This document shows positions 386-4,702 of a stretch of 39,252 bases of DNA, in pieces. The DNA is taken from the NCBI GenBank assembly GCA_028873525.1, contig JAGWIM010000007.1, positions 1-39,252 on the forward strand. The letters are read 5' to 3'. Each line of letters begins with the position of its first letter. Position 1 is the first letter of the stretch. Both the position numbers and the translations under genes were made by a program. The notes under the pieces are model-generated. The model did not search any database and was not told the DNA's origin. It saw only the letters and a list, made by a program, of their open reading frames with translations. This stretch comes from Pseudomonadota bacterium. Its GTDB lineage: Bacteria; Pseudomonadota; Alphaproteobacteria; Rickettsiales; SXRF01.

Positions 386-461
386 AGCGGGATAGAGCAG
401 TGGAAGCTCGCGTGGTTCATTTGCCACGAGGCCGCCGGTTCGATTCCGGCTCCCGCACCCA
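386..461 (+). tRNA. tRNA-like sequence, CAU anticodon, 8-nt anticodon loop
   Basis: A 76-base cloverleaf can be drawn. The acceptor arm pairs GCGGGA (387-392) with TCCCGC (451-456), with an A:A mismatch at position 1:72 and an encoded CCA at 459-461. The D stem is GAGC/GCTC, the anticodon stem CGTGG/CCACG, and the T arm GCCGG-TTCGATT-CCGGC. The loop TTCATTTG has eight bases instead of seven, so function is doubtful. CAU with a mismatched first pair recalls initiator tRNA-Met. It ends exactly where the capsid frame resumes, which suggests it is a phage-borne tRNA or a deletion scar. I am confident of the fold but not of activity. Confidence 0.5.
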
Positions 462-1581: not shown

Positions 1582-1657
1582 TGGTGCCGCTTAGGTGACT
1601 CGAACACCTGACCCCGTCATTACAAATGACGTGCTCTACCAACTGAGCTAAAGCGGC
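1582..1657 (-). tRNA. tRNA-Thr (UGU)
   Basis: On the minus strand a full cloverleaf begins GCCGCTTTAGCTCAG at 1657. It has anticodon stem CGTCA/TGACG around loop TTTGTAA (anticodon TGT), a T arm AGGTG-TTCGAGT-CACCT, discriminator A, and an encoded CCA at 1584-1582. It is almost identical to the tRNA at 4363-4438; the differences lie in paired bases of the acceptor and T stems and in the anticodon (C to T). It marks the left edge of the AT-rich cassette and the right edge of the prophage remnant. Confidence 0.95.
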
Positions 1658-2053
1658 ATATACAAACAATCACAAACTATTGCTAGCCTGTTGATGACAC
1701 TGTGCTGACACGGCGGTTGCATCAGCTCAAGTCTTTTCTTCTAACCTCCCGCGTTTTCAACACCTTTTCCCACCGCTGCCCTGCCAGAGTTATGCATTAC
1801 GAACAAGGTAGTGCAAAAGTCAGAATGTAATAAACGTTGTTATATCAAAAACATGCCCGTTTCCAATTTTGCCATTTCGGCAAAAATTTCTGCGCGTTGC
1901 TGATAACACGCTGATATGAAACGATTGACAATGCATTTTCGCTGATATGGGCTTGGTTAAAAATAAGCAATAATCACGCATATATGTTCTCTATGGCAAA
2001 TTGAGAATTAGTGTTACATATTCTTTTTCAAAATCCTGCAAAATGCACAGACT
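1658..2053. other. Gene-free left flank of the AT-rich cassette
   Basis: I see no coding region in these 396 bases. Near 1694-1716 there is a GATGACA..GCTGACAC motif that recurs beside the second tRNA-Thr. A TTGACA hexamer occurs at 1925-1930, but I see no convincing -10 box at the right distance. The base composition shifts to AT-rich from about 1800. No clear ribosome binding site precedes the ATG at 2054. Confidence 0.5.
1690..1716. repeat. GCTGACA-type direct repeat, left copy
   Basis: The sequence GATGACACTGTGCTGACAC lies about 35 bases right of tRNA-Thr(UGU). A similar stretch, GCTGACATAGCGCTGACAT, lies at 4482-4500, at a comparable position beside tRNA-Thr(CGU). A shorter GCTGACACG occurs at 4297. 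Paired motifs beside tRNA genes suggest integrase-binding arms of att sites. I infer this from position and similarity only. Confidence 0.4.
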
Positions 2054-3241
2054 ATGATTTCAAAAGAAGAATTGGCAATCCTAATAAAAAACACGGAATC
2101 CGACCATTTAGAGCGTACGGAATCTACAGATGACACCCAAAAATTCTGTGAAGCTGTATGTGCCTTTGCCAATGATATGCCTAATCATCGAAAGCCCGGC
2201 TATCTTCTGATTGGCGTAAAAAAGGATGGAACACTTTCGGGGCTTAGTGCTACGGAACAATTGCTTGAGACACTAGGGCAAAAGCTTCGTAAGAATGGGA
2301 ATATCTTACCCATACCTACAATTACAATCGGCAAATTTGCTTATCCGGAGGGTGATGTAGTAGCAGTTGAAGTCATACCTTCTGATATACCGCCTGTACG
2401 ATATAATAATAAGATTTATATCAGAACGGGCGCAATGAAAGATGTTGCTAGCGAGCAACAAGAACGTGTTCTGAGCGAAAGAAGGGTTTCGTCCACACTT
2501 AGTTATGATGTGACGCCCTACCAAGGCGCTACCTTAGATGATTTAGCCCTCGATCTTTTTGAGGTATATCGGAAAGGAGCCATCTCTGCAGATATTATTG
2601 AGGCCAATGGTAGAAGTATCGAAGAGCAATTGGCCTCATTACGATTCTTTGATCTTAGGATGCAATGTCCGACTATTGCAGGCATTCTATTGTTCGGTAA
2701 AAATCCTCGTTATTTCTTGCCTGGTGCATATGTACAATATTTGCGCTTCCCGGGAACGGCGATTACTGATGAACCCGATGATCAGCAAGTAGTATCCGGT
2801 GATTTGGGAAGCGTAATGCGTGAACTTGAAATACGCATAAAAACTAACCTTACTACTCATTTGGAAAAAGTGTCTACCTTACAAGAGAAAGTATATCATA
2901 ACTATCCAGAGGTGGCCGTAAGAGAACTTCTCAACAATGCTGTTATGCATCGTGATTATCGTTCTCATACGCCAGTACGTCTTTATTGGTTCGAAGATCG
3001 AATTGAAATACAGAACCCTGGCGCTCTATACGGAGAAGTTACCTTAGATACGATTATTTCTAGGAATAGTTATCGCAATCCAGTTATTGCTGAAACTATG
3101 AAGACGCTTGGTTATGTCAATCGTTTTGGTTATGGTATCCAACGTGCAAAGAAAGCCCTAAATGATAATGGTAATCCTGAACCCGTTCTTGAGTCTGCCA
3201 ACAGTGTTTTCTTAGCAAAGATTTACCGAAGGGCACCATGA
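2054..3241 (+). CDS. AlbA_2 (Schlafen-like) plus HATPase_c_4 protein
   Basis: This 395-residue protein has an N-terminal AlbA_2/Schlafen-type domain. It shows ESDHLERTES near residues 15-24, then CAFANDMPN and the phrase GYLLIGVKKDGTLSGL (about 50-65), the family's AFANxxGGxLxIGVxxxG pattern. The C-terminal half carries a GHKL-type HATPase_c_4 signature, AVRELLNNAVMHRDY, followed by RIEIQNPGALYG and RFGYGIQRA. Such proteins are usually called ATP-binding transcriptional regulators; related AlbA_2 domains act as RNA nucleases or nucleic-acid binders in defence and regulation. Its last codon overlaps the start of the ParA gene (ATGA). Base composition is much richer in AT than the flanking chromosome, and tRNA-Thr genes flank the pair, so recent transfer is likely. 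The start has no clear Shine-Dalgarno. The domain assignment is firm, the role unknown. Confidence 0.8.
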   Translation: MISKEELAILIKNTESDHLERTESTDDTQKFCEAVCAFANDMPNHRKPGYLLIGVKKDGTLSGLSATEQLLETLGQKLRKNGNILPIPTITIGKFAYPEGDVVAVEVIPSDIPPVRYNNKIYIRTGAMKDVASEQQERVLSERRVSSTLSYDVTPYQGATLDDLALDLFEVYRKGAISADIIEANGRSIEEQLASLRFFDLRMQCPTIAGILLFGKNPRYFLPGAYVQYLRFPGTAITDEPDDQQVVSGDLGSVMRELEIRIKTNLTTHLEKVSTLQEKVYHNYPEVAVRELLNNAVMHRDYRSHTPVRLYWFEDRIEIQNPGALYGEVTLDTIISRNSYRNPVIAETMKTLGYVNRFGYGIQRAKKALNDNGNPEPVLESANSVFLAKIYRRAP

Positions 3242-4245
3242 AAACAATAGCCTTCTTTAATAACAAAGGTGGGGTTGGGAAGACATCGCTAGTCTATCAT
3301 TTAGCGTGGATGTTTGCCGAAAAAGGGGTTTCGACGCTAGCGGTCGATCTTGATCCACAGGCGAATTTAACTTCGATGTTTCTTGACGAAGAAAGGCTAG
3401 AAAAACTGTGGGAAGGTGATAAGCATCCTGAAACTATTTTAGGTGCGCTTGATCCCATTCTAAGAGGATTAGGAGATATTAAACAACCTCACACTGAGTC
3501 CATTGACACAGGCAATCTTTTTCTTATTCCTGGAGACCTCGCATTATCAAGATTTGAAGACAAACTTTCAGAAAATTGGCCAAAATGCCTCAGTGGCGAT
3601 GAATCTGCCTTTCGTACCACTACTGCATTTTATCGTTTAATTGCTCAAAGCGCCGAGCAATCTAAAGTACAGCTTGTATTGATTGATGTCGGCCCAAATC
3701 TTGGAGCCATAAATCGTTCTGCAATGGTTGCTGCACAGCAAGTGATATTACCTATTGCTCCCGATCTCTTCTCAATTCAAGGTTTAAAAAACCTAGGTCC
3801 AACGCTGAGAAAATGGCGTGAAGAGTGGGAAGAACGCAAGAAAAAGAAACCTGCGGACTGGACTGAAAAATTGCCTGGTGGAGGAATGCAACCGGCTGGA
3901 TATATAGTTATGCAATTTGGCCTCAGGGATAATCGTCCTGTACAAGCCTATCAACGCTGGTTAGAAAAAATTCCCAGTGTATATAGGGAATCTGTATTAA
4001 ATGAATCTTTGTCGTCCAAATTGCCTAGTGTAACAAATGATCCTTATTGTGTAGCTATGTTAAAACACTATCGTAGCCTAATGCCGCTTGCAATGGATGC
4101 CAGGAAACCGATGTTTTTTCTTAAACCGGCTGATGGTGCGATTGGTGCTCATGTTGGAGCTGTCAAAGCGTGCTATGATGACTTTTTAGCATTAGTCGAA
4201 CGTATCGCTAAAGATGCGGGAATTTCTTTCCCACATTCGAACTGA
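3238..4245 (+). CDS. ParA/MinD-superfamily ATPase, orphan
   Basis: This 335-residue protein opens with FFNNKGGVGKTSL (deviant Walker A, residues about 7-18), then AVDLDPQANLTSMF (Walker A'), and has VLIDVGPNLGAINRSA (Walker B) near residue 150. These mark a ParA-type ATPase that dimerises on ATP and DNA. The C-terminal third (VMQFGLRDNRPVQAYQRW onward) is longer than in plasmid ParA and of unknown role. There is no ParB or parS-like array nearby, so ordinary plasmid partition is unlikely. The ATG overlaps the stop of the AlbA_2 gene, showing translational coupling and probably a shared complex or pathway. The codon use is AT-rich like its partner. An alternative is a relic of an integrated plasmid. 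Family call firm, function open. Confidence 0.85.
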   Translation: MKTIAFFNNKGGVGKTSLVYHLAWMFAEKGVSTLAVDLDPQANLTSMFLDEERLEKLWEGDKHPETILGALDPILRGLGDIKQPHTESIDTGNLFLIPGDLALSRFEDKLSENWPKCLSGDESAFRTTTAFYRLIAQSAEQSKVQLVLIDVGPNLGAINRSAMVAAQQVILPIAPDLFSIQGLKNLGPTLRKWREEWEERKKKKPADWTEKLPGGGMQPAGYIVMQFGLRDNRPVQAYQRWLEKIPSVYRESVLNESLSSKLPSVTNDPYCVAMLKHYRSLMPLAMDARKPMFFLKPADGAIGAHVGAVKACYDDFLALVERIAKDAGISFPHSN

Positions 4246-4533: not shown

Positions 4534-4560
4534 AACATAATGTTTCCATTATGTTTTTTT
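4534..4560 (+). terminator. Rho-independent terminator
   Basis: A perfect 9-bp stem AACATAATG/CATTATGTT with loop TTTC runs into a T tract. It lies 290 bases downstream of the ParA gene on the same strand and beyond tRNA-Thr(CGU), which is on the other strand. It probably ends transcripts of the cassette or of an older insertion. Confidence 0.65.
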
Positions 4561-4584
4561 ACCACCTTAACCATTAGACCAACA

Positions 4585-4624
4585 CATTACGAAAGCGGTG
4601 CTCTACCAACTGCGCTAAGGCGGC
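4585..4624 (-). pseudogene. 5' half of a broken tRNA-Thr (CGU)
   Basis: From 4624 on the minus strand the sequence reads GCCGCCTTAGCGCAGTTGG and continues through a CGT anticodon loop (TTTCGTAA), then leaves the tRNA consensus. The 3' half, the T arm and the acceptor partner are missing. The anticodon-stem sequence (CCGC) differs from the intact copies, so this may be the original chromosomal gene, cut by insertion at the anticodon loop. A T to G change in the D stem is a further sign of decay. Confidence 0.65.
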
Positions 4625-4702
4625 ATCATGTCTCAAACACAGGACAGGTTGCGGTTTATACCTTATGAAACTGCTGGCTGACAATAAAAATAGCGGCGGG
4701 CG

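Follow-up and report, generated by a model that had tools for sequence, protein, structure and literature searches.

We analyzed the 39,252-nt contig JAGWIM010000007.1 (here called the window, which is the entire contig), part of a 2.0-Mb assembly (GCA_028873525.1) of an alphaproteobacterium of the order Rickettsiales. The 16S sequence likewise places the host in the Alphaproteobacteria, with Methylosinus (86.7%) as the best of the matches listed. The window harbors two overlapping genes, encoding an AlbA_2-HATPase protein (a Schlafen-like AlbA_2 domain joined to a GHKL-ATPase domain) and a ParA/Soj-like ATPase. We found that they belong together as a genuine two-gene system, a conclusion that is well supported across genomes. 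The explanation that we favor, and consider reasonably probable by analogy with related gene pairs, is that the pair makes up a single conflict module of toxin-antitoxin-like type that spreads horizontally and is probably directed against phages, in which the AlbA_2-HATPase protein would be an effector restrained by ParA. The pair comprises the following elements:

2054..3241, + strand: AlbA_2 + GHKL-ATPase (HATPase_c_4) protein, 395 aa, Pfam PF04326 and PF13749; predicted effector (Schlafen-like nuclease)
3238..4245, + strand: orphan ParA/Soj-like ATPase of 335 aa, Pfam AAA_31, whose C-terminal region is specific to its subfamily; predicted restraint or sensor
3238..3241, + strand: ATGA stop/start overlap (translational coupling), seen in the sequence; same overlap in 28/32 intact pairs
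1660..2053, no strand: noncoding AT-rich stretch 5' of the pair, GC 39.6%; presumably holds the pair's promoter

The first gene product matched SLFN_AlbA_2 (61.6 bits) and HATPase_c_4 (65.9 bits), the second matched AAA_31 (100.9 bits), and both open reading frames (ORFs), their domains, and the ATGA overlap, as described in an earlier reading of the DNA alone (the sequence-only reading), were confirmed from the sequence and Pfam. That reading also had the pair as richer in AT than its surroundings, and the GC content is indeed 0.418 versus 0.592 in the rest of the window; right of position 4700, the lowest GC in any 2192-bp stretch is 0.517. Its description of ParA as an orphan holds, as no ParB gene adjoins the pair and the host's ParB matches are all on other contigs. 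A promoter/terminator scan gave signals only at shuffle level, with no promoter above it upstream of the pair.

A scan of public genomes returned 25 relatives of the window ParA, in assemblies of Pseudomonadota, Chloroflexota, SAR324, Myxococcota, Planctomycetota, Hydrogenedentota, and Cyanobacteriota; several are metagenome-assembled genomes, and single phylum labels may reflect binning errors. The AlbA gene was located directly upstream of the ParA gene in 39 of 43 loci (broken copies counted), the four exceptions being a contig edge (L049), a short or degraded ParA (L055 and L057), and an AlbA remnant (L254). Among 398 genomes of the phylum, all 20 ParA matches of at least 360 bits had AlbA or a remnant of it directly upstream, which answers in favor of the pair the co-occurrence check that the sequence-only reading had set beforehand as able to overturn it. 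In the same genomes, AlbA matches of at least ∼150 bits all adjoined this ParA, and generic AlbA_2-HATPase proteins (at most 140 bits) occurred without it.

The 4-base overlap was kept in 28 of the 32 intact pairs, and AlbA and ParA co-diverge, with a distance-matrix Mantel r of 0.694 versus a maximum of 0.242 in 5000 permutations. Together with the 39/43 linkage, this bears out the claim that the two proteins form one system. It also bears on a highly improbable alternative, namely that two unrelated cargo genes, or a nonconflict regulatory pair, came together by chance at a tRNA hotspot. Such an origin would suit the window, where the pair sits between tRNA copies beside a prophage remnant, but it is largely refuted by the kept overlap, the co-divergence, and the occurrence of the pair outside tRNA loci in several phyla.

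In 39 of 43 loci, the pair had a lower GC content than the flanking DNA (median difference, −6.7 points), and this AT-richness suggests horizontal transfer. No close relative of the window ParA was found on plasmids or phages, whose proteins are only ∼30% identical to it, and none was confirmed on viral contigs. At several loci (L034 to L036, L048, L251, L259, and L038, the last from Simplicispira metamorpha), the pair adjoins DNA-maintenance genes, namely gyrA (then serC), uvrB, mutS, and Tex, and probably polA, as read from the sequence; the gaps to these genes are often <30 bp.

Partners of the wider ParA subfamily

We then analyzed the ParA subfamily with a profile (A5) built from diverse members, which separated a full-length class (at least 268 bits for intact copies) from ordinary ParA proteins of the same genomes (∼155 bits or less). 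Members of this class are ∼330 aa long, have the C-terminal region in common, and retain the deviant Walker A, A', and B motifs intact, and the window ParA has all of these features. Across all partners, the deviant Walker A residues K10..K15 T16 and residues D37, D39, and D150 are invariant, and the C-terminal region is common to ParAs of all partner types.

Members without AlbA were inspected singly, and the partners in three loci (L231, L232, and L233) were read from the sequence rather than scanned. Directly after ParA, we found a SIR2-like gene (SIR2_2) in four genomes (G151, G166, G196, and G132), a RelA/SpoT-like gene in four others (G130, G377, G099, and G365), and a HEPN gene (HEPN_RiboL-PSP) in three (G453, G255, and G275). 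SIR2 genes also follow ParA genes on plasmids of Vibrio ponticus, Spirosoma, Burkholderia, Photobacterium, and Neorhizobium, those of the last three being read from the sequence. SIR2, RelA/SpoT, and HEPN are partner classes known from defence. One ParA (G242) is followed by a 244-aa protein (L173:2536-3270, + strand) with no Pfam match, which by eye recalls a nucleotide-cyclase-like domain.

In the filamentous phage Pf1 (AY324828.1), the ParA-like Orf317 is followed by a HEPN ORF that is absent from the annotation (L064:5019-5546). This ORF encodes 175 aa, overlaps the 3' end of Orf317, matches HEPN_RiboL-PSP at 37.8 bits, and contains the RxxxxH motif; the two are probably a ParA-HEPN pair. 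Subfamily genes also occur alone, as a prophage gene in one genome (G325) and in P22-like phages, Helicobacter phages, and Pantoea plasmids (L065, L066, and L062); the ParAs of the latter three loci are sister to the HEPN-paired clade and have the Walker A sequence KGGVSKT. A collection of E. coli genomes gave no subfamily match, and a phage collection gave only the P22-like, Pf1-like, and Helicobacter ParAs.

The ParA tree is partitioned by partner: its 7 partner labels require 7 changes, against a minimum of 6 and a mean of 20.3 after shuffling. The AlbA-paired proteins form one clade with 100/100 support, and the HEPN-paired proteins form another with 98/91. This exchange of partners within one subfamily, together with the 2013 proposal that dyads of HEPN proteins and ParA/Soj-like ATPases are toxin-antitoxin systems with the ATPase as antitoxin (PMC3710099, Anantharaman et al. 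2013), places the AlbA_2-HATPase protein where the toxin would be. The suggestion of the sequence-only reading that the ATPase gates an AlbA_2 effector is supported by the same analogy, since this ParA subfamily also stands beside SIR2, RelA/SpoT, and HEPN proteins and its tree follows the partner.

These partners also bear on a reading that we rate as improbable, in which the pair would serve the partition or maintenance of a mobile element, with AlbA_2 as a DNA-binding substitute for ParB. The ParA fold is nearest to Soj/ParA after the structure 3pg5, AlbA_2 domains can bind nucleic acid, and the AT-rich, mobile pattern of the pair would fit. Against this stand the pairing of the same ParA subfamily with SIR2, RelA/SpoT, and HEPN enzymes, the subfamily-specific C-terminal region, and the plasmid and phage relatives, only ∼30% identical to the window ParA, with none confirmed on viral contigs.

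We propose that, in the toxin-antitoxin-like module, the N-terminal Schlafen-type AlbA_2 domain would cut RNA (tRNA or rRNA), and the GHKL domain would bind a nucleotide and control assembly or activation of the effector. The ParA/Soj-like ATPase would restrain the effector or sense infection by means of an ATP-driven cycle of dimerization and of the C-terminal region specific to its subfamily, and a trigger would cause release. We give even odds to a broader view, that a ParA/Soj-type ATPase is the common controller in a family of bacterial conflict systems whose toxic enzymes are exchanged (Schlafen-like AlbA_2, SIR2, RelA/SpoT, and HEPN), the AlbA_2-GHKL version being a bacterial Schlafen-like tRNase checked by a ParA switch.

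Predicted effector and defence context

Alignment of 21 AlbA sequences showed that E15 and E20 are invariant and that an acidic residue is present at position 57 or 58 in all 21. The window protein has D58, and position 58 is D or E in 19 of 21. The spacing of the E15/E20/D58 triad (5/38) equals that of the catalytic residues E205/E210/D248 of SLFN13. A structural model of the protein (predicted local distance difference test score, 82; predicted template modeling score, 0.61), in which the relative placement of the domains is uncertain, was compared with known structures by Foldseek; the best match was DIP2311, followed by the SAMD9 tRNase domain and SLFN11/12/14. A Pfam scan found no C-terminal winged helix. 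From sequence and model, the AlbA_2-HATPase protein is probably a tRNA/rRNA nuclease, and by analogy it is a predicted toxic effector.

The AlbA gene was broken and the ParA frame open in three loci, by an insertion sequence in L246 and by deletions in L254 and L260; the converse, a broken ParA with an intact AlbA, was not seen among the loci. This bias of 3 versus 0, in a small sample, is in the direction expected of a costly effector. It also counts against an unlikely alternative in which ParA itself would be the anti-phage effector and the AlbA_2-HATPase protein its nucleic acid sensor or regulator. That assignment draws on GiPD474 (WP_000368620.1), a lone AAA_31/ParA-like protein of the Gifsy-1 prophage that protects against phage (PMC12724215), on the lone full-length ParA members of P22-like phages and prophages, and on the frequent annotation of COG2865-like proteins as regulators. 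However, AlbA is the gene found broken, and most chromosomal ParAs of the subfamily are paired with a protein carrying a domain of known toxicity.

The pair itself gave no full-length component match in PADLOC 2.0, only partial ones (pAgo-associated and PDC-M28B models). We therefore turn to its neighbors, for which 179 ORFs near the pair were scanned against 62 control ORFs. Wadjet JetABC adjoins the pair in one locus (L037), and three others (L050 to L052) carry an Hma/DISARM-like operon with an HmaB/DUF1156-like methylase and an SNF2 helicase. An RT_UG29/DnaG-like (DRT) match also appeared in the scan. As to the enrichment beside known defence genes that the sequence-only reading proposed to check, only a minority of the loci sit with such genes, and the control ORFs also gave many generic matches, so that we use only the strong cases (Wadjet and the Hma/DISARM-like operon); the association with known defence islands is no more than modest.

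Several observations weigh against an anti-phage module with an AlbA_2 effector. Position 58 is K or S in 2 of the 21 sequences (the acid being at 57 there), and many AlbA_2-HATPase proteins occur without ParA and are often described as regulators. The gene order is reversed in the SIR2, RelA/SpoT, and HEPN dyads, where ParA comes first. The 3-versus-0 decay bias is small, and some of its cases are possibly assembly errors. Finally, PADLOC matches near the pair exceed the control only in a few strong cases, and at many loci the pair is surrounded by housekeeping genes (gyrA-serC, mutS, uvrB, and probably polA). We consider a defence role of the pair plausible; the data would also fit a toxin-antitoxin role linked to stress or to an element.

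The tRNA-Thr site of the window

The pair is flanked in the window by the following features:

1582..1657, − strand: additional copy of tRNA-Thr(TGT) that borders the insertion on the left; a separate tRNA-Thr(TGT) lies on G000:C125
4363..4438, − strand: tRNA-Thr(CGT) of the host tRNA locus, forming the right border; its flank is matched in G009 and G005
∼4549..4626, − strand: orphan 5' half of tRNA-Thr, also in G009 and G005; Rfam tRNA 23 bits, below the gathering score
1..1577, + strand: remnant of a prophage, with DNA methylase, capsid, and cement protein genes; abuts tRNA-Thr(TGT) and lies outside the two-gene system

The two complete tRNA-Thr genes are 94% identical across 78 nt, and the pair provides the sole ORFs of substantial length between them, with no integrase of its own. 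Two family members (G009 and G005) have the same orphan 5'-half tRNA and TGTCAGC repeats upstream of tRNA-Thr(CGT), and the cassette is absent beside this tRNA gene in both. Like a tRNA-integrated genomic island, the site is bounded by tRNA repeats on either side and has an empty counterpart in a relative. Since the relatives keep the tRNA flank, in G009 without the cassette, the window carries an insertion made up of the cassette and a further tRNA-Thr gene with anticodon TGT, after which prophage genes follow.

The setting between near-identical tRNA-Thr genes emphasized in the sequence-only reading is thus real here, but it is not a general trait: no tRNA gene adjoins the pair in the other loci examined, and the tRNA location is therefore incidental to the system. 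The GCTGACA motifs that it matched to the tRNAs fared similarly. Five of the 8 copies flank tRNA copies, but the motif is barely enriched window-wide (8 seen versus 3.9 expected; 5% of shuffles), and its occurrence upstream of tRNA-Thr(CGT) in G009 and G005, both cassette-free there, makes it part of an older tRNA locus that predates the cassette. The 5'-half tRNA-Thr with TGTCAGC repeats, present in three genomes (window 4549-4626, − strand; L120; L122), is perhaps an old integration scar. Inside the prophage remnant (window 386-461, + strand), ARAGORN reported a tRNA-like gene with a four-base anticodon (catt) that scores 47 bits with Rfam tRNA, possibly an expanded-loop phage tRNA.

Comparison with known systems

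In the literature searched, whose coverage of relevant papers was incomplete, we found no description of AlbA_2-ParA, SIR2-ParA, or RelA/SpoT-ParA pairings. ParA/Soj-HEPN dyads are already published, and it is the AlbA_2 partner that is new within ParA/Soj-effector dyads. If our interpretation is correct, it would give a function to the widespread "orphan ParA" genes, whose products are usually taken for partition proteins, and would place several classes of toxin-like enzymes under one control protein. It would also provide the Schlafen/SAMD9 antiviral nucleases with a bacterial relative, encoded in a two-gene unit whose small size permits direct tests, with a solved structure of a ParA family member (3pg5) already at hand.

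This structure is that of DIP2308 from Corynebacterium diphtheriae, the best structural match of the window ParA and a full-length member of the subfamily (287 bits, the next being Soj at 99); it differs in nesting with SIR2-paired ParAs in the tree. DIP2311 (PDB 3lmm), the best match of the AlbA model, is from the same species. We considered a partnership of the two, whose locus tags have nearby numbers, and dropped it, as DIP2308 falls with the SIR2-paired ParAs.

COG2865-type AlbA_2-HATPase proteins have the same domain order as the window protein, but with the family profile they score at most 140 bits, versus 513 to 637 bits for the full-length ParA-linked AlbA clade. The RNases of the Schlafen/SAMD9 type share with it the AlbA_2 domain, the acidic triad with its spacing of 5 and 38, and a fold match. 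The window protein differs in having a single AlbA_2 domain and a GHKL ATPase domain, in being bacterial, and in belonging to a two-gene unit, and its RNase activity is a predicted one. GiPD474, likened here by description only, is also an AAA_31/ParA-like ATPase with anti-phage activity but acts as a single gene. ParABS partition systems differ by an adjoining cognate ParB.

The closest known counterparts are the HEPN (MAE_18760)-ParA dyads, in which a ParA/Soj-like ATPase gene likewise directly adjoins a toxin-like RNase gene without ParB. The ParAs that we found paired with HEPN proteins fall into the full-length subfamily of the window ParA, although their partners match PF18735 (RiboL-PSP) and those of the 2013 dyads are of the MAE_18760 family. 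In the window, by contrast, the partner is AlbA_2 plus HATPase_c_4, the effector gene comes first, and the ParA belongs to a clade of its own (100/100). The AlbA_2-ParA pair is a sister variant of the HEPN type and not a member of it.
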